Part shown: positions 7,329 through 30,187 of the stretch, one piece after another
How positions within the stretch are numbered: position 1 is the stretch's first letter
How the letters are laid out: each line of letters opens with the position of its first letter
DNA from: a bacterium
Lineage (GTDB): Bacteria > CG2-30-53-67 > CG2-30-70-394
Direction of reading: 5' to 3'
Assembly: GCA_024278555.1 (NCBI GenBank)
Contig: JAJRSX010000028.1
Span: 1 to 30,374 of the forward strand
DNA: 30,374 nucleotides
Translations under genes and position numbers: made by a program
Notes under the pieces: generated by a model
Databases searched by the model: none
Told to the model about the DNA's origin: nothing
What the model saw: the letters and a program-made list of their open reading frames with translations, nothing else

Positions 7329-7916
7329 GTGGCGGCCTCCGCCCCGGCGCACTACGCTATCCGCGCCATGGGCGCGCTCCATCCCGACCGCTGCTGCCTC
7401 CTAGTCATTGACGTCCAGGAGGCCTTCCTCCCGGCGATCCACCAGATCGACCGGGTAGAGGCGAACCTGCGGGGGCTGCTCCACATGGGGCGCCGCCACG
7501 GCCTGCCGGTGGTAGCCACCGAGCAGTACCCCAAGGGGCTCGGCCCCACCCTCCCCGCCCTCGCCGCGGAGATCGACCCCTTCAAGCCGTTTGCCAAGAC
7601 CCACTTCGACGCCTGTCGCGAGCCCGGTTTTCTACCGCTGATCCACGCCACCGGCGCCACCCAGATCATTGCCGCCGGGGTGGAGAGCCACGTCTGCGTC
7701 CAGCAGACCTGCCGGTCGCTCGCCCGGCGCGGCTACCACCTCCACGTGGTCGCCGACGCCTGCTCCTCGCGCACCCCGGAGAACCACGCCATCGGCCTCG
7801 GGCTGATGCGCGAGGCGGGGATCTCGATCACCTCCACCGAGGCCATCCTCATGGAGCTCCTCGGCGAGGCGCGCGGCGAGCTCTTCAAGGAGACCCTCGC
7901 CTTTCTCAAGGGGTGA
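7329..7916 (+). CDS. Isochorismatase-fold hydrolase (nicotinamidase-like)
   Basis: This 195-residue cysteine hydrolase of the isochorismatase superfamily carries the triad Asp28 (LLVIDVQEAF), Lys90 (FKPFAKTHFDA) and Cys123 (AAGVESHVCVQQT), with the cis-peptide region GVE just before the Cys. I took GTG 7329 as start because GGAGGAG lies about 11 nt upstream; ATG 7368 lacks a ribosome site. Members hydrolyse nicotinamide, ureidoacrylate, isochorismate and similar amides or ethers; substrate cannot be fixed from motifs. Its stop overlaps the larB start region (TGATGATG), so the two are co-translated. Because LarB uses nicotinic acid adenine dinucleotide, a nicotinamide-to-nicotinate role would make sense, but that is inference. 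Confidence 0.82.
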   Translation: MAASAPAHYAIRAMGALHPDRCCLLVIDVQEAFLPAIHQIDRVEANLRGLLHMGRRHGLPVVATEQYPKGLGPTLPALAAEIDPFKPFAKTHFDACREPGFLPLIHATGATQIIAAGVESHVCVQQTCRSLARRGYHLHVVADACSSRTPENHAIGLGLMREAGISITSTEAILMELLGEARGELFKETLAFLKG

Positions 7917-7918
7917 TG

Positions 7919-8722
7919 ATGGACGCGGAGGCGGTGCGGGCGCTCCTGGAGCAGGTGGCCGCGGGGGCGACCTCGGTAGAGGCGGCCCTCACCTCCCTCC
8001 GCCATTTGCCGTACGAGCCGCTCGCCGAGGGCGGCATTACCTATGCCCGCCTCGACCACCACCGCGCCCTGCGCCAGGGGATCGGCGAGGTGGTCTACTG
8101 TGCGGGCAAGGGACCGGCGCAGGTGGCGGCGATCGCCGCCCGGATTGTCGAGCAGAGCGGCCGGCTGCTGGCCACCCGCGCCACCCCCGAGGACTTCGCG
8201 GCGGTGGCCGAGCGGCTGCCCGCGGCGCAGCACCACGAACAGGCCCGGGCGATCACCGTGGGCGAGGCGAAGGCGGGCGTCGGCGAGATCTGCCTGCTGA
8301 CCGCCGGTACCGCCGACCTGCCGGTGGCGGAGGAGGCGCGGGTGGTGGCCGAGTGGCTCGGATCGCGCGTCACCCCCCTCTACGACGTCGGGGTCGCCGG
8401 CCTCCACCGGCTGCTGGCCCAGCTGCCGCAGCTCGCCGACGCCCGGGTGGTGGTGGCGGTGGCGGGGATGGACGGGGTCCTGCCGACTGTCGCCGCCGGC
8501 CTCGGCGATCAGCCGCTTGTCGCGGTCCCCACCTCCACCGGCTACGGCGCCAACTTCGGCGGCATCGCGCCGCTCCTCACCATGCTCAACGCCTGTGCTC
8601 CGGGGGTCGGGGTGGTGAACATCGACAACGGCTTCGGCGCCGCCTGCCTGGCCCACCGGATCAACCTGTTGGGGGAGACGACCACAGACAACGAACGGCG
8701 AGCCCCAAATGGACACGAATAG
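7919..8722 (+). CDS. larB: LarB, nickel-pincer cofactor biosynthesis carboxylase/hydrolase
   Basis: This 267-residue protein has a LarB-specific N-terminus and a PurE/AIR-carboxylase-like C-terminal half (ICLLTAGTADLPVAEEA, DVGVAGLHRLL, VAGMDGVLPTVAAGL, VPTSTGYGANFGG, NIDNGFGAA). LarB carboxylates the pyridinium ring of nicotinic acid adenine dinucleotide and hydrolyses its phosphoanhydride, starting synthesis of the pincer cofactor. AAGGGG sits 5 nt before ATG 7919; ATG 7916 and GTG 7913 are in-frame alternatives. The conserved protein seems to end near AHRINLLGE. The last 15 or so residues (TTTDNERRAPNGHE) are encoded by sequence that looks like the adjoining intergenic repeats, so the tail may have been added when they arrived. 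Confidence 0.88.
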   Translation: MDAEAVRALLEQVAAGATSVEAALTSLRHLPYEPLAEGGITYARLDHHRALRQGIGEVVYCAGKGPAQVAAIAARIVEQSGRLLATRATPEDFAAVAERLPAAQHHEQARAITVGEAKAGVGEICLLTAGTADLPVAEEARVVAEWLGSRVTPLYDVGVAGLHRLLAQLPQLADARVVVAVAGMDGVLPTVAAGLGDQPLVAVPTSTGYGANFGGIAPLLTMLNACAPGVGVVNIDNGFGAACLAHRINLLGETTTDNERRAPNGHE

Positions 8723-9341: not shown

Positions 9342-9521
9342 ATTGCCCTATGTTCCACGCGACCCTGCAATACGAACACCGCGACCCGGGGCAACATCCA
9401 CAAACTCCTCGCACCTCGCGCCGCTGTGGCCCCAACCCATCACCCCTCTGCGTCTCCGCGCCTCTGCGCGAGCCCGGCCTTCCAGGCCCAACCGAAACCC
9501 TTTTCTTCCGACGGTGACGCC

Positions 9522-10712
9522 ATGTCCCTAGACGCCTACCTCGACTGCGCCGCCGGGATCTGCGGCAACATGGTGCTCGGCGCCTGCCTCGACGCCGGGG
9601 TGGAGGAGGCGGCGCTGCGTGGGGTGTTGGCCTCCCTCGGTCTCGACGGCTGGGAGCTCATGGTCGAGCGGACCACCCGCGGCGGCGTGGCGTGTACCCA
9701 CGCCCGGGCCACCTGCACACCCTCCCACGACCACCGCCACCTCGCCGACTGTCTGGCGATCATCGCTCGCGCCGCCCTGCCCGCACCGGTGGCGACCCGT
9801 GCCACGGCCGTGTTTACCCGGCTGGCCGAGGCGGAGGCGGCGGTCCACGGGGTCGCGGTCGAGGCGGTCCACTTTCACGAGGTGGGGGCGGTGGACGCCC
9901 TCATCGACATCGTCGGAAGCTGCTGGGCACTGCACACGCTTGGTGTCGAGCGCATCACCCACTCGCCGGTCAACGTGGGCGACGGCTGGGTCACCTGCGC
10001 CCACGGCCGCCTGCCGGTGCCGCCGCCGGCGGTGGAGCGGCTCCTGGTGGGCCGGCCGGTGTGTCGCGGCGTCCCCGGGGTGGCGGAGGCAGGAGAGCTC
10101 ACCACCCCCACCGGGGCCGCCCTCCTTTCCGCCCTCGCAACCCCCGCACCAGCGGCCGCGACCCACACGGTGGCGCGCACCGGCTACGGCGGCGGCGATC
10201 GGGATCAGACCGGCTTTGCCAACTGCCTCCGTCTCTCCCTCCTCGCCCCTGAACCCACCGGCCGGGAGCGGGTGGTGGAGCTGGTCTGCGACCTCGATGA
10301 CCTCCACCCGGAGTGCTACCCGGAGGTGGCCTTCGCCGTTCACGCCGCCGGTGGCCTCGACACAACCCTGGCGCCGATCACCACCAAACACGGCCGCCCC
10401 GCCACCCGCCTCACCGCCCTCGCCCCACCCGCCGTTGCCGCCGCGGTAGAGGCGACCCTCTTTTGCCACACCACGACCTTCGGGGTGCGTCGGCGGGAGG
10501 TCACCCGCACGGTCCTGGCCCGCCGCTTCGTGGAGGTCGCGACGCCGTACGGCACGGTGCGCGTCAAGGAGGGGTGGCGCGGAGGCGAGCGGCTCCAGGC
10601 CACCCCCGAGTACGGCGACTGCGCCGCGGCAGCCGCGCAACACCGGGTGGCGACCCGGGAGGTCTACCGGGCCGCCCTGGCCGCCATTGGGCCGCCCGGG
10701 GAGGCGCCATGA
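9522..10712 (+). CDS. larC: LarC, nickel insertion protein for the pincer cofactor
   Basis: This 396-residue protein begins MSLDAYLDCAAGICGNMVLGACLDAGV, the LarC N-terminal signature; the usual SGDM is CGNM here. It includes VEAVHFHEVGAVDALIDIVG, ELTTPTGAALLSALA, TGYGGGDRD, ELVCDLDDLHPE and the typical end PEYGDC...TREVYRAAL. LarC uses CTP to insert nickel into the pincer dithio-cofactor, completing the group used by lactate racemase-type enzymes. I chose ATG 9522 because the LarC homology starts there; no good ribosome site is visible. In Lactiplantibacillus plantarum LarC is made by joining two frames, whereas here it is one frame. larA and larE are not in the window. The stop overlaps the next gene (ATGA). 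Confidence 0.87.
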   Translation: MSLDAYLDCAAGICGNMVLGACLDAGVEEAALRGVLASLGLDGWELMVERTTRGGVACTHARATCTPSHDHRHLADCLAIIARAALPAPVATRATAVFTRLAEAEAAVHGVAVEAVHFHEVGAVDALIDIVGSCWALHTLGVERITHSPVNVGDGWVTCAHGRLPVPPPAVERLLVGRPVCRGVPGVAEAGELTTPTGAALLSALATPAPAAATHTVARTGYGGGDRDQTGFANCLRLSLLAPEPTGRERVVELVCDLDDLHPECYPEVAFAVHAAGGLDTTLAPITTKHGRPATRLTALAPPAVAAAVEATLFCHTTTFGVRRREVTRTVLARRFVEVATPYGTVRVKEGWRGGERLQATPEYGDCAAAAAQHRVATREVYRAALAAIGPPGEAP

Positions 10713-11293
10713 CCCCGTGGCTCCTGCCGACCACCGGCGCCTTCATCGGCTGGCTCACCAATAAGGTCGCCCTCACCCTCCTCTTCCGGCCGCGCGAGCC
10801 GGTGGCCATCGGCCCGTGGCGTCTGCAGGGGATCATCCCCGCCCGCCGCGAACGGCTCGCCGCCGCCATCGCCCGGGCGGTCCAGCGCGACCTCCTCTCC
10901 GAAACCCAGATCGCCCAGCTCATCGCCGAGATCGATCTAAGGGGTGAGGTAGAACGGGCGGTGGAACGGGCCATCGACCAGCGCATCGACAGCCGCCGCA
11001 TCGAGGGGGTGCCGGTGGTGGGACGGGTGAGCCGCCGCTTCTACGACGAGCTGAAACGGCGGGTGATGGCGGCGGTGGCGAGCCGCGCCCGGGACTACCA
11101 GCAACGGGTCGCCCACCGGATCGCCACCCGCGTCGACGTGGAGGCGCTGGTCCGCGCCCGGGTGGAGGCGATGGAGACGACCCAGGTGGAGGCGCTGCTC
11201 CTCGACCTCCTGCGCCACGAGTTCCGCTACCTCGAGTGGATGGGTGCGCTCCTCGGGGCGGCGATCGGGGCGCTCCAGCTCCTCTTGCTCTGA
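10709..11293 (+). CDS. DUF445-family membrane protein, short form
   Basis: This 194-residue protein starts at the ATG overlapping the larC stop (ATGA, 10709-10712). It has an N-terminal hydrophobic helix (PTTGAFIGWLTNKVALTLLF) containing the GWLTNK motif typical of DUF445/YheB-type proteins. The next line of the family, FRPREPVAIGPWRLQGIIPARR, follows. A long charged helical middle comes after (about residues 45-165), and a C-terminal membrane helix (YLEWMGALLGAAIGALQLLLL). The function of DUF445 is unknown. Tight coupling to larC suggests only shared expression. It is the last gene of the plus-strand group and faces qmoC. Confidence 0.78.
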   Translation: MTPWLLPTTGAFIGWLTNKVALTLLFRPREPVAIGPWRLQGIIPARRERLAAAIARAVQRDLLSETQIAQLIAEIDLRGEVERAVERAIDQRIDSRRIEGVPVVGRVSRRFYDELKRRVMAAVASRARDYQQRVAHRIATRVDVEALVRARVEAMETTQVEALLLDLLRHEFRYLEWMGALLGAAIGALQLLLL

Positions 11294-11303
11294 ATCGGCG
11301 ACG

Positions 11304-11341
11304 AAAAAAGAGGCGCCCCGGCCGGTAGGCCGGGGCGCCTC
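11304..11341 (-). terminator. Rho-independent terminator of qmoC
   Basis: A 14-bp perfect GC-rich stem (GAGGCGCCCCGGCC, 11310-11323 with 11328-11341, loop GGTA) is followed on the minus strand by six T (A-run 11304-11309). It begins 4 nt after the qmoC stop. No T-run follows on the plus strand, so it mainly serves the qmo transcript. Confidence 0.9.
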
Positions 11342-11345
11342 TCCC

Positions 11346-13022
11346 CTACTCGTCCTTCGCCTCTTCCTCGGCGGGGGGCGCCGGCGGGGCGGGCGGCTTG
11401 GCGCCACCCGGTACGCCGCCGAACATCGGCGGCGGCGGCGTGCCACCAATCTTGGAACCACCCGGCGCCGGGGGCGGCGGCGAGCCGCCGATCGTTGACC
11501 CACCGGCGGGCGGCGGCGGACTCCCGCCGATCTTGGAGCCACCCGCAGGCGGCGGCGGACTGCCGCCAATCTTGCTGCCACCACCCGGAGGCGGGGGCGG
11601 GGTGCCACCGATGCCCCCGCCGCCGCCCAGGGGCGAGGAGGGGGGCGGGCCACCGCCGATCTTGCTGCCGCCGCCCAGGGGCGAGGAGGGCGGTGCACCA
11701 CCACCGATCTTGGACCCCCCAAACATGGAGGGGGGCGCACCGCCACCGATCTTCGAGCCACCGCCGAGGGGCGAACCACCGCCGCCAAGGGGGGAGGTGG
11801 CAGCGGGACCACCGGCCGCGGCAGGTGCGGCGGCCTCCTCCTCTTCCTCCTCCTCCTCGACCTCCTCCGGCGGCTCCTCAGGCGGCCCCGGCAGGACCAC
11901 CGCGACCTCCTCCGCCGCGTACATCTTCTCATGCACCATCGCCGCGGTGCGGTAGAAGAGGTGGGCGAACTTCGAGTACGGCATGTAGCCGAGAAGCATG
12001 AAGATGAGGCAGAGGTGGATAAAGTAGGTGGGGTAGGCGATCCCGGCCGCGCCCGACAGGCGGGTGAGCTCGGTGAGGGTCCCGGTCACCGCCACCGCGG
12101 TGAGGAGCCCGAGGAAGAGCCAGTCGAAGTAGCTGGAGGGAAGGTTATTGCGCTCCTCCGGCCCCTTCTCGAAACGGCGCGCCACCAGGCGGGCACACCC
12201 ATAGAGGAGAAGGACGGCGCTGACGTTGCCGAGGATCTTGACCGGATCGTACAGGGGAAGGGGGGTGAGGCGATCGAAGAGGTAGTAGTAGAGGGTCACC
12301 AGGGTGGTGGTGGCGAAGGCGCCGAGGAAGCCGTAGAGCATCGGCAGGTGGCCGTAGTACCGCTTTCCCTCGACCGAACACTTGCGAAACTGGGTATGGG
12401 AGAGGATCTCCTTGCCGGTCAAGACGGCCGCCTCCGCCATCGTTCGTCTGGGGGACTCCCCGGCGCGGTGGGCGGAGATGCCGGTCCAGTAGCGGCGCAT
12501 CCCCATCAGGCCGGCAATAAAGCCGAAGAAGGAGACCGGGATGTAGAGGTACTCCAAAATGTGGATGGAGAAGAGCTTCGAGTAGACGATCTCCCCCTCG
12601 GGGATGTGCAGGTGGCCCTCGATCCCGAGGGCCACCAACAGGATGACCGCCGGGATCGCGAAGAGGAGCGGCAGGTACTTGGCGTCGTTAAAGAGGCGGG
12701 CGAAGGGGCGAGGCCAGGCAAAGTGGGTGATGGTGTAGTCACGCACCGCCGACAGGAGCTCGCCCGGCTTGGCGCCGCGTGGGCAGTAGGAGGAGCAGTC
12801 GCGACAGTTGTGGCAGACCCACACCAGCGGGTCGGAGACCAGCTTCTCCTTCATCCCCCACTGGGCGTGGATCATCTCCGGCCGCGGGAAGGGGCGATCG
12901 TCGGTGGAGATCGGGCAGACCACCGAACAGGTGGCGCACTGGTAGCAGCTCTTCAGATTTTCGCCGCCGAACGCCTTGAGGCTGCGAATGAATTCGAGAT
13001 CCGGTGCGACGGGAGTCGACAT
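11346..13022 (-). CDS. qmoC: QmoC, membrane subunit of the quinone-interacting oxidoreductase, with a long repeat tail
   Basis: This 558-residue protein begins with an HdrC-like iron-sulfur domain holding two CxxCxxCxxxCP sites (Cys26/29/32/36 and 70/73/76/80). A haem-b membrane domain follows, with hydrophobic segments near 117-133, 150-175, 228-248, 262-280, 301-316 and 322-346. QmoC passes electrons between the quinone pool and QmoAB, the partner of APS reductase. Usual QmoC ends soon after the last membrane helix (about 385-400 residues). Here about 180 residues follow: an acidic stretch (EEPPEEVEEEEEEEE), then eight GGSKIGG-like repeats with proline linkers, ending AEEEAKDE. I chose ATG 13022 with AGGTG upstream; GTG 13031 is an alternative. 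It starts 58 nt after the qmoB stop. Confidence 0.92.
   Translation of the reverse strand: MSTPVAPDLEFIRSLKAFGGENLKSCYQCATCSVVCPISTDDRPFPRPEMIHAQWGMKEKLVSDPLVWVCHNCRDCSSYCPRGAKPGELLSAVRDYTITHFAWPRPFARLFNDAKYLPLLFAIPAVILLVALGIEGHLHIPEGEIVYSKLFSIHILEYLYIPVSFFGFIAGLMGMRRYWTGISAHRAGESPRRTMAEAAVLTGKEILSHTQFRKCSVEGKRYYGHLPMLYGFLGAFATTTLVTLYYYLFDRLTPLPLYDPVKILGNVSAVLLLYGCARLVARRFEKGPEERNNLPSSYFDWLFLGLLTAVAVTGTLTELTRLSGAAGIAYPTYFIHLCLIFMLLGYMPYSKFAHLFYRTAAMVHEKMYAAEEVAVVLPGPPEEPPEEVEEEEEEEEAAAPAAAGGPAATSPLGGGGSPLGGGSKIGGGAPPSMFGGSKIGGGAPPSSPLGGGSKIGGGPPPSSPLGGGGGIGGTPPPPPGGGSKIGGSPPPPAGGSKIGGSPPPPAGGSTIGGSPPPPAPGGSKIGGTPPPPMFGGVPGGAKPPAPPAPPAEEEAKDE
11400..11830 (-). repeat. Coding tandem repeat GGSKIGG(S/G)PPPP in the qmoC tail
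   Basis: Eight units can be read in the qmoC frame: six with SKIGG, one STIGG and one GGIGG. The first units are joined by APPSMF / APPSSPL / PPPSSPL and the later ones by SPPPPA or TPPPPMF. The late units are 13 residues (39 bp) and nearly identical, which suggests recent unit duplication. The frame is intact throughout and is followed at once by the qmo terminator. Confidence 0.85.
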
Positions 13023-13080
13023 GGTAGGCACCTACGAGGCAGTGGTGATCGAATAGGGGGAGACCGCGGTCGACGCGGGG

Positions 13081-15246
13081 CTAGAAGCCCTTGAAGGGGT
13101 TGGGGCCGATCTTGTTGATGTGCTTGACGAACCCCTTCACGATCTCGGGGAAGCGCTGGTACTCGGAGATCGGGAACTCGATGTACTGGACCCGCTCCGC
13201 CTCCAGACCGAGGCGATCGAGGGTCTCCTGAATCTTCCCGAGGCGCTCCACCGCCAGCTCCGAGCCGCGAATCATGTGGCACTGGTAGTTATCGCCGTGC
13301 TTGCAGCCCAGCAGCATGACGCCGTCGAAGCCGCCGGAGAGGGAGTCGGCGATCCACACCTGGTTGATCGCGCCGAGGCAGCGCACCGGCACGAAGCGCA
13401 CCTGGACGTCGTACTGGAGCCGCTTCACCCCCGCCATATCAATGGCCGGGTAGGCGTCGTTCTCGCACATGAAGGCGAGGAAGCGCAGCTTGCCGGAGTC
13501 TTCACTCGGGATGTCGATGGCACGAATCTGCGACGAGGTGCCGTCGATGGAGTAGTTCTGGAAGTTGATGACCCGCTCGGGGCACGCCCCCATGCAGATG
13601 CCGCAGCGGCGGCACCGGTTAATGTTGAGCTGCGGGAAGCCCTTCTCATCCTCGTTGAGGGTGCCGAAGGGGCACTCCTCGGTACACCGCTTGCATGCGG
13701 TACACCGATCGAGACCGAAGTCTGGATAGGTGGGGTCCATCGCTCGCGGCAGGGCGGCGATGCCGGTACGGGCGTACTCGATCGCCTGGATCGCCTTCAT
13801 GGCCGCGCCGCCGCCGTCGATATAGGCGTTGGCGATGTCCATCGGCGCCCGCACGGTGCCGGCGGCGAAGATGCCGGTACGCCGGGTCTCGTACGGGAAG
13901 CAGATGAAGTGGGAGTCGGGGAAGCCGTACTTGAGGTCCGGCAGGGCCGCTCCCTGGCGGTACTCGAGGGCGAGGATGTCGTTCTCCAGGGTCGACGGCA
14001 CGATGCCGGTGGCCAGGACCACGAGGTCGACCTCAACGGTGATCGGCCCCCCAAGCAGCGTCTCCTCCGCGGTCACCGACACCTGGTTGGCGCCCACCGG
14101 CTTCACCTCGGTGACGTTGCCCTTGGTGAGGAAGACCCCCTCATCCTCCTGCATCGCCTTGTAGAAATACTCCTGATGGCCGGGGGTCCGCATGTCGCGA
14201 TAGAAGACAAAGGCACGCCCGTTGACCGGGTCGGCCTCGCGCACGTACGCCGCCTGCTTCAGAGAGGTGGCGCAGCAGCTCGACGAGCAGTAGGGCAGAT
14301 GGTCCGGATCCCGCGAGCCGGCGCACAGGACGAAGGCGACCGAGGTCGCCGGCCGGCCGTCGGAGGGGCGGACGATCTTGCCGCTCTTGGCCATCGCCTC
14401 GAAGGTGTCGGAGCTGACCACGTTGGGGGAGGCGCCGAAACCGAGGTGGTCGAGCTTCGCGGCGTCGTAGGAGGAGGCGCCGGTGGCGAGGACCACCGAG
14501 CCCACCTGCATCGCCACCTCGTCGCCGTCGCGCTTCACCAGGGCGGTAAAGAGGCCGGGCTGGCCGGAGATCTTCACCACCTCCGAGGAGGTCATCACCT
14601 CGATGTTGGGCTGCGCCTTGACCTCCCCCTCCTTGCGCGCCAGGTCGGGCTCGCTGAGCTCGGCGTACGGCTGCCGCTGGGGGAGCTGGCGGTGGAGGGT
14701 GCGCAGGTAGCCGCCGAGCTCCGCCTCCTTCTCCACCAGAACCACCTTGTGGCCCGCCTTTGCCGCCTCGATCGCCGCCTGCATGCCGGTGGCGCCGGCG
14801 CCGATCACCAGGAGGGTGTCGTACACCTCCTGGGTCACCGACGACTCGGGGATCGAGCTCTTGCTGTTCTTGACCAGCCCCATGCGCAGGTAGTCCTGCG
14901 CCAGGGCGTCGGTCTCCTCGTCGTTGGGGGTGTGGCACCACGCCACCTGCTCGCGCAGGTTCACCCGATCGAGGACGACATCGTCGCCGAAGGCGAAGAC
15001 ATCCTGGTTCACCCGCCCCGAACAGGCGGCGATGACCACCCGGTTGACACCCTCGCCGTCGATGTCATCGCGGATGACCTTCACCCCCTCGTCACTACAG
15101 AGGAAGGCGTTGGTCTTGCAGGTCGACGACTTCGGATCGCCGTTGGCGATCTTCTCGAGGGCCTCGATATCGAGGGCGTCACCGAGGCCGCATCCCGTGC
15201 AGATGTAGGTGCCGAGCTTCGGCTCGGCGGCGGTATCGTTGGCCAC
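13081..15246 (-). CDS. qmoB: QmoB, HdrA-like flavoprotein with C-terminal MvhD-like domain
   Basis: This 721-residue protein has an N-terminal CTGCGL segment and a flavin-binding domain with LLVIGAGATGMQAAIEAAKAG from about residue 143. HdrA-type motifs follow (LCAGSRDPDHLPYCSSSCC). A two-cluster ferredoxin domain has CTACKRCTEECP near 515 and CRRCGICMGACP near 542. A final domain (FLAFMCENDAYPAID, VRFVPVRCLGAINQ, GVMLLGCKHGDNYQC) resembles MvhD/FrhD electron-transfer subunits. QmoAB is the cytoplasmic part linking APS reductase to QmoC. I chose GTG 15246 because AAGGAG is 6 nt upstream; the upstream TTG is directly against the ribosome site. It begins 2 nt after the qmoA stop. Confidence 0.93.
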   Translation of the reverse strand: MANDTAAEPKLGTYICTGCGLGDALDIEALEKIANGDPKSSTCKTNAFLCSDEGVKVIRDDIDGEGVNRVVIAACSGRVNQDVFAFGDDVVLDRVNLREQVAWCHTPNDEETDALAQDYLRMGLVKNSKSSIPESSVTQEVYDTLLVIGAGATGMQAAIEAAKAGHKVVLVEKEAELGGYLRTLHRQLPQRQPYAELSEPDLARKEGEVKAQPNIEVMTSSEVVKISGQPGLFTALVKRDGDEVAMQVGSVVLATGASSYDAAKLDHLGFGASPNVVSSDTFEAMAKSGKIVRPSDGRPATSVAFVLCAGSRDPDHLPYCSSSCCATSLKQAAYVREADPVNGRAFVFYRDMRTPGHQEYFYKAMQEDEGVFLTKGNVTEVKPVGANQVSVTAEETLLGGPITVEVDLVVLATGIVPSTLENDILALEYRQGAALPDLKYGFPDSHFICFPYETRRTGIFAAGTVRAPMDIANAYIDGGGAAMKAIQAIEYARTGIAALPRAMDPTYPDFGLDRCTACKRCTEECPFGTLNEDEKGFPQLNINRCRRCGICMGACPERVINFQNYSIDGTSSQIRAIDIPSEDSGKLRFLAFMCENDAYPAIDMAGVKRLQYDVQVRFVPVRCLGAINQVWIADSLSGGFDGVMLLGCKHGDNYQCHMIRGSELAVERLGKIQETLDRLGLEAERVQYIEFPISEYQRFPEIVKGFVKHINKIGPNPFKGF

Positions 15247-15248
15247 GT

Positions 15249-16517
15249 TCAACTCCTTGCGACGAGCTGGTGAATCGAGTGGAGGGCGGCAGCGGTCGCG
15301 TCACGGGTGGAGGTGGTGACATCCACCGGCGCACGCGCGCAACCCACCGGGAAAATCCCCGCATCGGAAAGCGGCGTCATCACGAAGCCGTCCTCATCGT
15401 GCTCCAGCGACCCGGCGAGCGGATCACCCAGCAGGGAAGGCTGCATCCCGGTGGCCAGGACCACGATATCCGCCACCCGATGGACCTTCTTCCCGGAGAC
15501 CGCGTCCTCGGCGGTCACCACCAGGTACTGACCGTCGGTGCTCGGCTCGATCTTGGCCACCTTACCCTTGATGAGCTCAATCCCCGCCTCCTTGGCGGTG
15601 GTGAAAAAGTCTTCGTAACGGCCGGGGGTACGGATATCGATATAGAAATCGGTAACCTCCGCGTCCGGATACTGCTCCTTGAGCAGCAGCCCCTCCTTGA
15701 GGGAGGCCATGCAGCAGATCGAGGAGCAGAACTGGAGGTGGTTCTCGTCACGGGAACCGGCACAGTGAACGAATACCACCCGCTTCGGCAGCTTGCCGTC
15801 CGATGGGCGGAGAATCTTGCCCGCGGTCGGTCCGCTCTCCGCCGCCATCCGTTCGAAGGTGACGTTGTTGACGATGTTTGGATGGGTGCCAAAGCCGAGG
15901 TTATCCATCCGGCTCGCGTCGTACGGACGCCAACCGGTGGCGACGATGATCGCCCCCACCTTGAGCTCCTTATCCTGCGCCTGCTGGGCGAGGTCGATGG
16001 CGTCGTACTGGCACTTCTCCACGCACTTGCTGCACGAGCTCCCCTGGCACGCCGCCATGTCGACGGCGAACTTCATCGGAAAGGCCATGTCGTGGGGAAG
16101 GTAGATCGCCTTCGTCTTTGTCAGGCCGTAATTGAAGTCGTCCCCCCGATCCTCCGGGCACACCTCAACGCACTCGCCACAGGCGGTGCACCGCTGGTTT
16201 ACATAGCGCGGCTCCTGGCGCATGGAGACGGTGTAGTCGCCTGGACCACCGGAGATCTTGGTCACCTCCGCGAGGGTGTGGACGGTGACGTCCGGGTTCT
16301 GCTTGATTCGCCGGAGGTTGATCTCGAAGCCGCAGTACGGCGGACAGAGCTTGGGGAAGTATTTCCCCAGGCGAATTGCCCGGCCGCCGAGATATGCCTC
16401 CTTCTCGACAATGATGACCCGATGTCCGGCCTCGGCCGCCTCGTTGGCGGCGGTGAGGCCGGCGATGCCTCCCCCGATCACCAGGATCGGGAGGGCGTCA
16501 CTGGTCGCGGTTGCCAT
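15249..16517 (-). CDS. qmoA: QmoA, HdrA-like flavoprotein
   Basis: This 422-residue protein begins with a dinucleotide-binding fold (ILVIGGGIAGLTAANEAAEAG, residues 11-31; then VEKEAYLGGRA). It has iron-sulfur sites CTACGECVEVCP (Cys110/113/116/120) and CQGSSCSKCVEKC (157/162/165/169). HdrA-type motifs follow: VIVATGWRPYD, HCAGSRDENHLQFCSSICC and a closing flavin-fold segment PVGCARAPVDVTTS. Length agrees with QmoA of sulfate reducers and lineage-II sulfur oxidisers. GGGAGAG precedes the ATG. It is the first gene of the qmo transcript, with its own promoter about 100 nt upstream and separated from aprA by a terminator hairpin. Confidence 0.93.
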   Translation of the reverse strand: MATATSDALPILVIGGGIAGLTAANEAAEAGHRVIIVEKEAYLGGRAIRLGKYFPKLCPPYCGFEINLRRIKQNPDVTVHTLAEVTKISGGPGDYTVSMRQEPRYVNQRCTACGECVEVCPEDRGDDFNYGLTKTKAIYLPHDMAFPMKFAVDMAACQGSSCSKCVEKCQYDAIDLAQQAQDKELKVGAIIVATGWRPYDASRMDNLGFGTHPNIVNNVTFERMAAESGPTAGKILRPSDGKLPKRVVFVHCAGSRDENHLQFCSSICCMASLKEGLLLKEQYPDAEVTDFYIDIRTPGRYEDFFTTAKEAGIELIKGKVAKIEPSTDGQYLVVTAEDAVSGKKVHRVADIVVLATGMQPSLLGDPLAGSLEHDEDGFVMTPLSDAGIFPVGCARAPVDVTTSTRDATAAALHSIHQLVARS

Positions 16518-16617
16518 AGGTCTCTCCCAGTGCGCGTGTAGTGGTACGGGAATTTGGCGCCGCCGTCACCCGAAACAAGTCTCCCTGTCGGGGGGGTGCT
16601 ACCAAACGGGGCGGGGG

Positions 16618-16646
16618 ATTATACGTGGGACGGCCGCCGCCTTCAA
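16618..16646 (-). promoter_or_regulatory. Sigma-70-type promoter of qmoABC
   Basis: Minus-strand -35 TTGAAG (16641-16646) and a perfect -10 TATAAT (16618-16623) are separated by exactly 17 nt. Transcription would start near 16611, leaving a leader of about 95 nt before qmoA. Upstream, at 16682-16693, is the 12-mer CCCCACTCTATA, which also overlaps the apr -10 region. Confidence 0.75.
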
Positions 16647-16915
16647 CGGTTTCTTGTATGCGTTCCCGCATAAAGAAAAGATATAGAGTGGGGTATCACG
16701 GCAACCGCACGGATGCCCCCTCGGACCACACCATCGCGACCCGATTCAGGGATATCTCACTGCTCATGGCCAGCTTGGATTAATCCCTCCCTTTACAGTA
16801 TCTGAACGCGGAAGGGCGCACCCTACGGTGTGGAATCCCACCGGCTCCCCCGCGCGCGGCCTGTCCACGGTGGTCTCCAACCTTCGTACTCTTCGTGGTC
16901 TTGCCCCTTCGGAGC

Positions 16916-16954
16916 AAACAAAAGGGGCCCCCGCGGCAACGCCGCGGGGGCCCC
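16916..16954 (-). terminator. Terminator hairpin after aprA
   Basis: A 14-bp perfect stem (GGGGCCCCCGCGGC, 16924-16937 with 16941-16954, loop AAC) begins 25 nt after the aprA stop and is followed on the minus strand by TTTTGTTTG. It should end or attenuate the aprBA transcript. The rest of the 16518-16979 gap holds the qmo promoter. Around 16880-16905 there is a CTTCGTACTCTTCGTGG stretch resembling common dispersed intergenic repeats. I see no gene in the gap. Confidence 0.8.
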
Positions 16955-16979
16955 CAACCCTGCAAGGTCTGCTCGAAGA

Positions 16980-18929
16980 TCAACCCTTCGAGACGAGGTC
17001 CTTGTGCTCACGGTTGAAGCACTGCCAATCACCGGTCTTCGGGTCGAAGCGGGAGTTGACGAAGACCTTCCAGTTCTGCTCGTCGAGCTGCGGGAAGTCC
17101 GCCCGGTAGAAGAAGCCCGGGTAGCGGGTCTCCTGGCGGTGGTAGATGTGCCGCAGGTGGGCCTCGGCGGTCCAGATGCGGTGGTAGTTCTCCCAGCAGC
17201 GGAGGAGATCATGGAGGTCCTTCGCCCCCATCTTCATGGAGTCCTCCTTGAGCATGGTGAGGAGCTCCAGGCCACGCTCCATCATCTTGGCGCTGGTGAT
17301 GTACCAGGTCGCCACGCCGCCCACATACTCGTCCATGATCTTGTTCAGACGGAACATGAGCATCCGCGGACGGATGTAGTGCGGGTTGATGTAGGGATCG
17401 GTGGTGAAATCCTTGTGATCCTCGTAGTTCTTGAACGGCAGGTAGATCTCCGCGGCGAGCTGCTCCTTGTCGACGGTGATCGTCGGCTTGAAGTCGGCGT
17501 GGTTCTTGCACCACTTGACCGCGTTCTTGCCGGCCATCCGCCCCTCGGCGTGGGAGCCGGAGGAGAACTTGTGGCCGGAGGCGCCGACGCCGTCACCGGC
17601 GGTGAACAGCCCCATGACCGTGGTCATCCGGTTGTAGGTGACGCCGTTGTCCTTGACCTGCCACTCCTCCGGGGCGAGGTCGGCGGGGCCGCCGGTCCAG
17701 ATGCCGCAGCAGCCGGAGTGGGAGCCGAGGAGATACGGCTCGGTCGGCATCAGCTCGGAGGGAGACTCCTCCGGCTTGATGTTCATGCCCGCCCAGAGGC
17801 CGGCCTGGCCGATGCACATGTCGAGGAAGTCCTCCCACGCCTCGGCCTCGAGGTGCTTGATCTGCTTCTCGTCCATCGTCTTGGACAGCTCGGCCAGCGC
17901 CGTGGGGGTATCCATGTAGATGGGGCCGAAGCCGTTGCGCATCTCATGCATCATGAGGTGGTTACGCAGGCAGGTAGCGGGCACCGCCGAGAGGCCGTAG
18001 GGCGGGTAGTCCTTCAGCATCTCCGCGTTCTTCACCATGTAGTTCTCGCCGTAGGCGTTGAGGGCCTTCGACTTGAAGAGGAGGAACCAGGCACCCACCG
18101 GGCCGTAGCCGTCCTTGAAGCGGGCGGGCACGAAGCGGTTCTCCATCATGGTGAGCTCGGCGCCCACCTGGGTCGCCATGGCGTAGGTGGAGCCGGCGTT
18201 CCACACCGGGTACCAAGCGCGGCCCATGCCCTCACCGGTGGAGCGGGGGCGGAAGATGTTCACCGCGCCGCCGCAGGCGATCATGATGGCGTTCGCGCGG
18301 ATGATGTAGATCTTGTTCTCACGCACGGAGAAGCCCACCGCGCCGGCGATCCGGTTGTCCTCGGCCTCGTCGAGGAGGAGCTTCACGATGAAGCAGCGCT
18401 CGATGATGTTGTCCATCCCCAGGGCCTTCTTCGCGGCCTCGGCGACGATCGGCTTGTAGGACTCGCCGTTGATCATGATCTGCCACTTACCGGAGCGCAC
18501 CGGCTGGCCGCCGTCACGCAGGGACTTGCCCTCGTCCCCCGGCTGCTTCCAGACCGGCAGCCCCCACTCCTCAAAGAGCTTCACCGAGTCGTCCACGTGG
18601 CGGCCGACGTCGTAGATGAGGTCGTCGCGGACGATCCCCATGAGGTCGTTGGCGACCATCCGGACATAGTCGGAGGGGCTCTGCTCGCCGAGGTAGGTAT
18701 TGATCGCCGAAAGCCCCTGCGCCACCGCGCCGGAGCGGTCTAGTGCCGCCTTGTCGCAGAGGAGGATGCGGACGTCGTCGCCCGCCCACCGCTTCGCCTC
18801 GTAGGCGGCACCGCAAGCGGCCATGCCGCCGCCGACGATCAGGAAATCGGTCTCAAGCTCCTCGATGACCGGGTTCTTGCAGAAGTGCGACTCGCACAAG
18901 TCGTGTACAGACACTGCCTCATCAGCCAT
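16980..18929 (-). CDS. aprA: Adenylylsulfate (APS) reductase alpha subunit, AprA
   Basis: This 649-residue FAD protein begins with the flavin fold (DFLIVGGGMAACGAAYEAKRW, from residue 28). Family sequences follow throughout: DRSGAVAQGLSAINTYLG, GGAVNIFRPRS, ENRFVPARFKDGYGPVGAWFL, SHSGCCGIWTGGPAD, TVMGLFTAGDGVGASGHKFSSGSHAEGR, and a C-terminal RHIYHRQETRYPGFFYRADFP. AprA carries the site where sulfite adds to FAD and is converted to APS plus AMP, or the reverse. Length matches the family (about 620-660). AAGGA lies 8 nt before the ATG. It follows aprB by 74 nt. Direction of catalysis (sulfur oxidation or sulfate reduction) cannot be read from the sequence. Confidence 0.96.
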   Translation of the reverse strand: MADEAVSVHDLCESHFCKNPVIEELETDFLIVGGGMAACGAAYEAKRWAGDDVRILLCDKAALDRSGAVAQGLSAINTYLGEQSPSDYVRMVANDLMGIVRDDLIYDVGRHVDDSVKLFEEWGLPVWKQPGDEGKSLRDGGQPVRSGKWQIMINGESYKPIVAEAAKKALGMDNIIERCFIVKLLLDEAEDNRIAGAVGFSVRENKIYIIRANAIMIACGGAVNIFRPRSTGEGMGRAWYPVWNAGSTYAMATQVGAELTMMENRFVPARFKDGYGPVGAWFLLFKSKALNAYGENYMVKNAEMLKDYPPYGLSAVPATCLRNHLMMHEMRNGFGPIYMDTPTALAELSKTMDEKQIKHLEAEAWEDFLDMCIGQAGLWAGMNIKPEESPSELMPTEPYLLGSHSGCCGIWTGGPADLAPEEWQVKDNGVTYNRMTTVMGLFTAGDGVGASGHKFSSGSHAEGRMAGKNAVKWCKNHADFKPTITVDKEQLAAEIYLPFKNYEDHKDFTTDPYINPHYIRPRMLMFRLNKIMDEYVGGVATWYITSAKMMERGLELLTMLKEDSMKMGAKDLHDLLRCWENYHRIWTAEAHLRHIYHRQETRYPGFFYRADFPQLDEQNWKVFVNSRFDPKTGDWQCFNREHKDLVSKG

Positions 18930-19003: not shown

Positions 19004-19429
19004 TTAGTAGGTGGCGGGGAGGCTCTCACCGGCCTCGGTAAAGAAACACTCGTCGTCGATGCTGCCGGGCTCGGGGAGGCCGCCGTACGGATCGATGGAG
19101 CCCTCGGCGGTGGTGCGGATCGGGAACTTGAACCGCTTGGTCTCACCGCTGCGGAACTTGATGGTCCACATGATGGAGTCGGAAGAGCGCATCGGGATGA
19201 CCTGGCCGCCGAGGGGGACGATGTCCGCATAGGCGCGCGCCTCGATCGCCTGCTGCGGGCAGATCTTGACGCAGGAGTAGCACTCCCAGCAGTTGTCGGG
19301 CTCCTGGTTCAGGGCCTTGCTCATGCTCAGGTCCAGCTTCATCAGGTCGTGCGGGCAGATGTACATGCACGCCGTCTTGTCCTGGCCCTTACAGCCATCG
19401 CACTTCTCGGTCATTACGAAGGTAGGCAT
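19004..19429 (-). CDS. aprB: Adenylylsulfate (APS) reductase beta subunit, AprB
   Basis: This 141-residue iron-sulfur subunit carries two [4Fe-4S] sites: CDGCKGQDKTACMYICP (Cys10/13/21/25) and CWECYSCVKICP (Cys47/50/53/57). The irregular first motif, with a longer insertion, is the AprB hallmark. The C-terminal tail (TTAEGSIDPYGG...GESLPATY) wraps around AprA in the known structures. I chose ATG 19429, which has AAGGAG 7-8 nt upstream; a longer frame to 19570 has no support and would cover the leader. AprB carries electrons between AprA's FAD and QmoABC. It is the first gene of the apr transcript, with a leader of about 150 nt. Confidence 0.96.
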   Translation of the reverse strand: MPTFVMTEKCDGCKGQDKTACMYICPHDLMKLDLSMSKALNQEPDNCWECYSCVKICPQQAIEARAYADIVPLGGQVIPMRSSDSIMWTIKFRSGETKRFKFPIRTTAEGSIDPYGGLPEPGSIDDECFFTEAGESLPATY

Positions 19430-19590
19430 CTGGCTCTCCTTGCGTTGGGGTTGCGCGGTTAGGTTGCGAACGATAGAGACATGGCCGAGAGGTCCCGACC
19501 GGACTGCGCTCGTCAGCTTGCCTACAACCGCGGCCCACGGTATTCCTGAGACCGTGTCGCCATACGACACCCTGACGAGCGGCGGGGGAG

Positions 19591-19617
19591 GTTATAGAGT
19601 GGGGCGGACGGCGTCAA
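19591..19617 (-). promoter_or_regulatory. Sigma-70-type promoter of aprBA
   Basis: Minus-strand -35 TTGACG (19612-19617) and -10 TATAAC (19591-19596) are separated by 15 nt, slightly short. The -35 overlaps the stop codon of the LpdD-like gene. The leader to aprB is about 155 nt. It holds a small hairpin (GTGTCG/CGACAC, 19555-19570) and a 9-bp inverted pair (GCTCGTCAG at 19508-19516, CTGACGAGC at 19572-19580), possibly regulatory. Confidence 0.55.
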
Positions 19618-20036
19618 GCCGTTTTCGACTCTACCGAGCCATCGGCAGGGGCCGATCCGACGCCGGTGATCCACTCGGCCGCCTCCGCCGCCACCTCCCC
19701 GCACAGGGAGACAGCGGTGTCGATTTCCCCCCTCGTAGCCCCCGGATAGTGGATGCCCGCGCCTACCACCACCCGTCCCCGGCCGGCCTTTGCCAGCCGC
19801 CGGGCCGTTGCCAGCGCCACCCCCTCCTCCCGGTGGCCCGGGGCGGTAAGGACCGAACCACTCGCCCGGCCGCTCGCCGCATCCCACACCCCGAGGGCGC
19901 AGGCGCCGAGGTGGGGTTCGCCGCCGGTGAGCACCACCAGCCAGTCCCCGCCCACCGTGCGCACCTCGATGGAGACGGCGATACGACCATCTCGGGCGTC
20001 GGCGCAAAACGAAGGGGAGAGGGGGGAAGGATGCAT
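19614..20036 (-). CDS. LpdD-like (prenylated-flavin-chaperone-like) small protein
   Basis: This 140-residue cytoplasmic protein has the pattern SIEVRTVGGDWLVVLTGGEPHLGACALG, then GSVLTAPGHREEGVALATARRLAKAGRGRVVVGAGIHYPGATRGEIDTAV. I recognise this as the small GGE-PHIGAV / LTLPGH / VVSAGIH family grouped with LpdD, the third subunit-like protein of some UbiD-type decarboxylases, with a fold like proteasome-assembly chaperones. No ubiD or ubiX is visible in this window. I chose ATG 20036 because upstream codons lie in an inverted repeat. It ends inside the apr promoter and is oriented with aprBA-qmoABC, so read-through is possible. Its link to sulfur metabolism is unknown. Confidence 0.6.
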   Translation of the reverse strand: MHPSPLSPSFCADARDGRIAVSIEVRTVGGDWLVVLTGGEPHLGACALGVWDAASGRASGSVLTAPGHREEGVALATARRLAKAGRGRVVVGAGIHYPGATRGEIDTAVSLCGEVAAEAAEWITGVGSAPADGSVESKTA

Positions 20037-20037
20037 G

Positions 20038-20170
20038 GGGCTCTCAGCTTTCAGCGGCAAGTTGTCTCCTGCCAAGCAAAACCCTGGCGGGGCGGCCGTT
20101 GCAAGCCCCTCCTCTCCGCCACACCACCGGCGCCACTTTCTGAAAGCTGTTCGCTGAAAGCTGAAAGCCC
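20038..20170. repeat. Short inverted-repeat element (GCTGAAAGCTGAAAGCCC ends)
   Basis: Arms of 19 nt at 20038-20056 and 20152-20170 are inverted copies with one mismatch. The right arm is preceded by a further CTGAAAG. CTGAAAGCTGAAAGC repeats are common between genes in environmental bacteria. The 133-bp unit fills most of the divergent gap between the LpdD-like gene and the radical SAM gene, and no clear promoter is seen for either. Confidence 0.65.
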
Positions 20171-29424: not shown

Positions 29425-29490
29425 AGGGTAAAGGGGTGGAGGGGGGTGCGGAAGGGGCAAATGGGAGCGGTTGCCGGCATGCCGGAAGGC

Positions 29491-29520
29491 ACGTATCATT
29501 TTCATACGAATACGTATTAT
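29491..29520 (+). promoter_or_regulatory. Candidate operator of the toxin-antitoxin pair
   Basis: Just before the antitoxin gene the sequence ACGTATCATTTTCATACG contains the inverted pair CGTAT/ATACG, followed at once by the 8-bp palindrome ATACGTAT. This AT-rich patch stands out from the GC-rich surroundings. Ribbon-helix-helix antitoxins typically bind such repeats to repress their own operon. Confidence 0.45.
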
Positions 29521-29530
29521 GGAGCCATCC

Positions 29531-29752
29531 ATGAAGAAAAAACTTACGGTAACCATCGACGAAGACCTCATTCCCCAGGCCAAGCAGTTCGCACGCCAGC
29601 GGCGCGTCTCTCTGTCCCAGCTCATCGAAACCGCCTTACGCCGGATGGGTACAGGCGAGACGTCATCCTTTTCCAGCCGCTGGAAGGGACGGTTCCAGCC
29701 GGCGGAGCACGAGGATGAACGGTACCGGGCGTTGGCACAGAAGTACCTGTAG
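29531..29752 (+). CDS. Ribbon-helix-helix-type antitoxin (DUF6364-like)
   Basis: This 73-residue protein begins MKKKLTVTIDEDLIPQAKQFARQRRVSLSQLIETALRRM, a ribbon-helix-helix DNA-binding domain with the SLSQLIE turn. An acidic and aromatic tail (FSSRWKGRFQPAEHEDERYRALAQKYL) follows that would block the toxin. GGAG lies 6 nt before ATG 29531; ATG 29519 would add MEPS. It sits 18 nt before a PIN-domain gene, the standard antitoxin-toxin order. AT-richer codon use at its start suggests recent transfer. Confidence 0.82.
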   Translation: MKKKLTVTIDEDLIPQAKQFARQRRVSLSQLIETALRRMGTGETSSFSSRWKGRFQPAEHEDERYRALAQKYL

Positions 29753-29770
29753 GCGTCTCGGAACAAGACC

Positions 29771-30187
29771 ATGGTTCTCCTCATCGACACCGACGTCCTG
29801 ATCGACTTTGCCCTTGATCGGCAGCCTCATTCCACGGAGGCAAGTGAGCTCCTCGACTGGGTTGAGCAGCGGGCTGACCCCGCTTTCGTTGCCTGGCACA
29901 CCCTCTCCAACTTTTACTACCTTGTCGCCCCGAAACACGGTTACAGGTCGACGCGCGACTTCCTTGTCGACCTGACCCGCTTCGTCCAGGTCGCCCCCAC
30001 CACCACCGAAAGTCTGCGCTATGCGGCGCAACTGCCGATGCGCGATTTCGAAGACGCCCTCCAGGTCGCCGCCGCCGTAGCGTGCCACGCCGAGGTCATC
30101 GCCACACGCAACCTCCGCGACTACGCCCGCTCCCCGGTCCGCGCCCGCAAGCCGAGCACCATTCTCCAGGAGCTCCAATCTTCGTAG
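29771..30187 (+). CDS. vapC: VapC-like PIN-domain ribonuclease toxin
   Basis: This 138-residue PIN protein has acidic residues at IDTD (Asp6, Asp8), DFEDALQ (Asp92, Asp95) and the ATRN-RDYA segment. The usual central acidic residue is replaced by the HTLSNFYY pattern found in one PIN subfamily (COG5573-like). VapC toxins cut tRNA or rRNA in a magnesium-dependent way unless bound by antitoxin. Length is normal. The frame is intact, so the module may be active. Its TAG stop lies in the left arm of the 26-bp hairpin shared with argJ. Confidence 0.85.
   Translation: MVLLIDTDVLIDFALDRQPHSTEASELLDWVEQRADPAFVAWHTLSNFYYLVAPKHGYRSTRDFLVDLTRFVQVAPTTTESLRYAAQLPMRDFEDALQVAAAVACHAEVIATRNLRDYARSPVRARKPSTILQELQSS

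Follow-up and report, generated by a model that had tools for sequence, protein, structure and literature searches.

The QmoC protein encoded in the window (the whole 30,374-nucleotide stretch of DNA analysed here, contig C207 of a 3.06-Mb genome) is an otherwise ordinary full-length QmoC that carries an additional C-terminal tail of 189 residues with eight GGSKIGG-like motifs. Among the genomes sampled, the GGSKIGG block is restricted to this genus. Comparison of two species shows that its protein sequence is under purifying selection, and we put forward, tentatively, the idea that the tail tethers a soluble partner of the Qmo/APS-reductase step in a flexible, multivalent way.

Genetic context and identity of qmoC

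QmoC is the quinone-side subunit of QmoABC, which exchanges electrons with APS reductase. The qmoC frame of the window is uninterrupted from 13031 to a TAG at 11346-11348, and the gene is the last of an operon that reads aprB-aprA-qmoA-qmoB-qmoC in one direction on the minus strand. The identification as QmoC, which an earlier note had made from the letters alone, was confirmed by the NCBIfam qmoC model (NF038018), aligned end to end (1-360 of 360) with residues 10-367 at 421.6 bits against a cut-off of 300. The genes of the operon are as follows.

19004..19570, minus strand: aprB, true start probably internal, as the model begins at residue 48 (TIGR02060, 210.1 bits)
16980..18929, minus strand: aprA (TIGR02061, 968.1 bits)
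15249..16517, minus strand: qmoA, HdrA-like (open reading frame and profile search)
13081..15252, minus strand: qmoB, HdrA-like (HdrA2 family, 427.9 bits)
11346..13031, minus strand: qmoC, 561 aa, with the C-terminal repeat tail (NF038018, 421.6 bits)
11916..13031, minus strand: QmoC core, an HdrC-like domain for two [4Fe-4S] clusters and a NarI-like six-helix membrane domain (AlphaFold, fold matches)

The core has the features expected of the family. Both cysteine sets (C29, C32, C35, C39 and C73, C76, C79, C83) were invariant among 34 sequences, as were histidines 228, 339 and 357, which bear on the haem b content and quinone reaction expected of a QmoC. Residues 1-105 matched the HdrC fold (Z 10.7), and the best solved fold for the membrane part was NarI, the nitrate reductase gamma subunit (Z 11.7 over 188 residues at 6.3 A, residues 129-382 of the model on NarI 1-225). 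NarI has one membrane helix fewer than QmoC and no repeat tail. The window protein thus resembles other members of NF038018 in its full-length match, cysteine sets, NarI-like membrane part and aprBA-qmoABC operon, and differs from them in its predicted disordered repeat tail.

Two other features of the operon region were observed. A 462-bp gap (16518-16979) separates aprA and qmoA inside the operon, and a small gene directly upstream of aprB (19614-20075, minus strand) matches the Pfam family PAC_bac and resembles bacterial proteasome-assembly chaperones. Elsewhere in the window, an AIR-carboxylase-like (LarB-like) gene lies near a gene for a nickel insertion protein (LarC) (7913-8722 and 9426-10712, plus strand), a proximity that suggests nickel-pincer cofactor synthesis. 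A small gene and the PIN-like gene after it (29471-30187, plus strand) have, from the translations only, the look of a toxin-antitoxin pair.

Architecture of the tail

As the qmoC model covers residues 10-367 from end to end, residues 373-561 are an addition to the protein. The earlier note had placed the outer end of the tail correctly at 11349; its inner end was 15 bp short of the boundary at 11915. The acidic, E-rich stretch, the eight GGSKIGG-like repeats and the acidic tip that it described were all found.

11349-11915, minus strand: tail proper, residues 373-561, 189 aa, beyond the qmoC model match
11811..11915, minus strand: acidic stretch, residues 373-407, net charge -14
11397..11810, minus strand: Gly/Pro-rich repeat block, residues 408-545, eight GG..IGG units, net charge +7
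11742..11762, minus strand: unit 1, GGSKIGG
11700..11720, minus strand: unit 2, GGSKIGG
11652..11672, minus strand: unit 3, GGSKIGG
11604..11624, minus strand: unit 4, GGGGIGG (degenerate)
11562..11582, minus strand: unit 5, GGSKIGG
11523..11543, minus strand: unit 6, GGSKIGG
11484..11504, minus strand: unit 7, GGSTIGG
11442..11462, minus strand: unit 8, GGSKIGG
11349..11396, minus strand: Pro-rich acidic tip, residues 546-561, charge -4, ending PPAEEEAKDE
11307..11344, minus strand: intrinsic terminator hairpin and T-run directly after the qmoC stop (folding)

Six of the eight units are exactly GGSKIGG, and successive units lie 14, 16, 16, 14, 13, 13 and 14 residues apart on linkers of glycine and proline. 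When the residues of the repeat block were shuffled 10,000 times, the mean number of units was 0.12 and the maximum 3, compared with the eight observed. The motif accounts for six of the seven lysines and all eight isoleucines of the block. Glycine and proline make up 52% of the tail, its net charge is -11 and local GC is about 68-70%. Binding of metal, one of the roles suggested earlier, is unlikely, as there is neither histidine nor cysteine in the tail.

The terminator reported to follow the stop at once is a 17-bp hairpin with a T-run that starts 1 nt past the stop codon (-39.2 kcal/mol, z -5.9). It was missed by a scan for consensus terminators, probably because the stem absorbs part of the T-run, and is revealed by folding.

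Predicted structure and topology

An AlphaFold model was built with 34 homologues; a single-sequence model was poor and was discarded. In the core, most 10-residue blocks had pLDDT values above 90, with six helices at 117-138, 156-188, 224-252, 263-288, 300-326 and 329-352. Past residue 400 the pLDDT was mostly 33-48 with no structure, and the charge-hydropathy index of the tail was borderline. The tail is therefore predicted to be intrinsically disordered, as had been supposed.

With six helices, the tail would emerge on the same side of the membrane as the N-terminal ferredoxin domain, for which contact with QmoAB implies a cytoplasmic position. The loops of that side contain 10, 4 and 3 lysine and arginine residues, compared with 1, 2 and 1 on the other side, and the C-terminus of NarI, to which the fold alignment extends, is cytoplasmic. 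From this charge bias and the NarI-like fold, we predict a cytoplasmic location for the tail.

Distribution among other QmoC proteins

QmoC was present in 123 of 395 genomes of one large phylum, and 38 of 386 genomes sampled from across Bacteria gave 41 QmoC-like matches. About 160 other QmoC proteins lacked a GGSKIGG tail, including those of six examined genomes from another family within the class that contains this genus; for most of the 123 genomes the judgement came from frame length, and the C-terminal sequence was read in a subset. The longest stop-to-stop QmoC frame outside the genus encodes 477 aa, so no other sampled QmoC can carry a tail of this size. Counted from the conserved SKFAH, 204 residues follow in the window protein and 187 in that of the congener described below. 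Other QmoC proteins have 16-82 residues past this point where they were read, and otherwise at most about 100 extra as bounded by frame length. Most of the C-termini read end 16-40 residues after SKFAH, and those of the six same-class genomes after 16-17.

Longer and mostly acidic tails were found after SKFAH at L012 (82 residues), L053 (69), L063 (58) and L078 (46). The extensions of L012 and L053 (genomes G013 and G064, of another lineage) share with the window protein an acidic, low-complexity composition, but they are Glu/Ser-rich, about 50-60 residues long, and lack repeats and GGSKIGG. The acidic part of the tail could accordingly be a larger form of a recurring feature.

Within its own genome, the back-translated motif occurs in qmoC only, and a search with the tail gave matches elsewhere only at E > 0.1. 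Against the 386 diverse genomes the tail gave weak low-complexity matches, and those that were read lacked the motif. No match was found in the PDB or Pfam, nor among plasmids, although in the latter search the BLAST low-complexity filter may hide some. In those parts of the literature reached by a text search for SKIGG, nothing on a QmoC tail system was found. A likeness of the motif to the C-terminus of QmoB (NKIGPNPFKGF) is three residues long and was treated as chance.

Conservation between two species

The congener, Nitrospirae bacterium CG2_30_70_394 (L031; sequence identical to contig C121 of G001), brings the comparison to two species in all. Its QmoC is 543 aa long, 88% identical to the window protein in the core, and has the same layout: seven perfect GGSKIGG units spaced 14, 16, 15, 15, 13 and 13 residues apart (range 13-16 in both species), a closing acidic tip and, after the stop, a terminator hairpin. 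No stop precedes the repeats. As the tail is common to both species, misassembly and a recent loss of the stop codon are both discounted as its source, and the earlier view that the extension is genuinely coded, in a frame open to its stop and terminator, is upheld. The expectation that copy number changes was likewise borne out, with eight units in one species and seven in the other.

Between the species, dN was 0.077 and dS 0.43 in the core, and dN 0.10 and dS 1.15 (synonymous sites near saturation) in the repeat block, with 89% amino-acid identity in an alignment that is ambiguous outside the anchored block and favours identity. The acidic part had a dN of 0.20 and was 63% identical. As more than one register is possible when the repeats are aligned, the selection test was repeated on a 45-codon block of three units fixed by an SMFGG landmark. 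In this block 42 of 45 residues were identical, and third positions took 19 of the 26 base changes; when changes of the same kinds were placed at random, 29 +/- 2 residues stayed identical, with a maximum of 37 over 5000 trials. The serine of the motif was kept across switches between TCN and AGC codons (unit 1 TCG versus AGC, unit 3 AGC versus TCG), and a TCG/AGC switch takes more than one base substitution.

Units were also compared with each other. Within one gene, synonymous divergence between units was 0.50-0.57 per site (pS 0.57 among the motif units of the window) and amino-acid-changing divergence 0.09-0.14, which indicates that the units are old and that their protein sequence has been held by selection. 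The description of the units as near-identical 39-bp repeats therefore did not survive: Tandem Repeats Finder gave 75-78% matches, and the strong divergence of units at synonymous sites led us to reject slippage of near-identical units. These comparisons show that the protein sequence of the tail is under purifying selection. Linkers were as constrained as motifs in the repeat block (pN 0.084 versus 0.105), so the test does not single out the motif. The near confinement of lysine and isoleucine to the motif suggests selection on it rather than on overall composition.

Physiological setting

dsrA is present in both genomes. The DsrL of CG2_30_70_394 belongs to group DsrL-1B, every DsrL-1 coexists with an oxidative-type rDsrA, and the physiology of CG2_30_70_394 has been called unclear (PMC7596348). 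This association of DsrL-1B with oxidative-type rDsrA suggests that the Qmo complex may run here in the sulfite-oxidising direction.

The genome of the window has a dsrA-dsrB-(DsrL-like)-dsrA cluster (L088, G000:C162:8000-27900), in which a single dsrB and the DsrL-like gene lie between two dsrA genes on the minus strand (9623-10873 and 14436-15647) that share 87% identity. Partial matches in the congener (G001 contigs C53, C178 and C42) suggest the same doubled dsrA, split by assembly. Each species also has two ATP sulfurylase genes (L111-L114; G000 contigs C1 and C143, G001 contigs C102 and C160).

Possible functions of the tail

We favour, tentatively, a function as a multivalent flexible tether, because the chain is disordered by prediction, a motif recurs every 13-16 residues, the tail faces the cytoplasm in our predicted topology and the partner AprAB is soluble. 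One bacterial genus would have added a long disordered cytoplasmic tail to QmoC, in which the membrane-proximal acidic stretch would serve as spacer. The seven or eight GGSKIGG motifs farther out, set 13-16 residues from one another on flexible Gly/Pro linkers, would each bind a soluble partner weakly; we infer that the motif is the binding site, and candidate partners are AprAB, Sat or a soluble Dsr protein. Several partners could thereby be kept near the membrane complex, with sulfite or APS and electrons passed on locally. The layout recalls the multivalent linker proteins EPYC1 and CsoS2, which have a regularly repeated short motif in a disordered chain. The comparison is one of working principle only and comes from layout alone; the QmoC tail, unlike these proteins, is a chain fused to a respiratory membrane subunit. 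Of the roles proposed in the earlier note, a tether or scaffold is the most plausible by this layout, yet no obvious matching addition was seen on the Qmo and Apr proteins of the window. AprA, AprB, QmoA and QmoB each carry a net negative charge, which makes no more than a loose match to the basic repeats, and two of the eight units are degenerate, which we count against docking.

It is also possible, if on balance doubtful, that the turnover of repeats in a genome of high GC produced a low-complexity tail, which is kept only for bulk properties (flexibility, charge pattern, solubility or crowding near the membrane), with motifs that bind nothing specific. The glycine and proline content, the local GC, the equal constraint on linkers and motifs, the limited conservation of the acidic part and the acidic tails of other composition on QmoC of other lineages are all consistent with such an origin. 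Lysine and isoleucine, however, whose codons are rich in A and T, occur almost only in the motif, and nearly every unit in either species retains them; many more residues of the anchored block are retained than expected, and the motif is found nowhere else in the genome. Self-association, in which repeats of neighbouring QmoC proteins stick together and cluster Qmo complexes in the membrane, seems improbable to us. Short, evenly spaced motifs on flexible linkers of a membrane protein would suit it, and the opposite charges of acidic stretch and repeat block would permit head-to-tail contacts, but these features fit partner binding equally. We consider binding of lipid head groups or nucleic acid through regularly spaced lysines very unlikely: each unit contributes one lysine and the repeat block is net positive, but one lysine per 14 residues is sparse, acidic segments flank the block and the whole tail is negatively charged. 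That the tail is no part of the working protein, whether cleaved off or an artefact of assembly, is scarcely credible given that frame, tail, stop and terminator are common to two genomes of different species and that the protein sequence is under purifying selection.

For sulfate reduction, and for the pathway in reverse, it is not settled how QmoABC and APS reductase meet or whether a third protein is involved, and the tail offers a way to address this. The more specific proposal, that a lineage-specific multivalent scaffold tail recruits APS reductase, ATP sulfurylase or sulfite reductase to the membrane, we regard as rather unlikely; if true, it would represent a membrane-anchored sulfur-oxidation assembly organised through a repeat tail and not through a separate scaffold protein. 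A conserved tail with multiple sites could be used as bait for whatever is brought to the Qmo complex.
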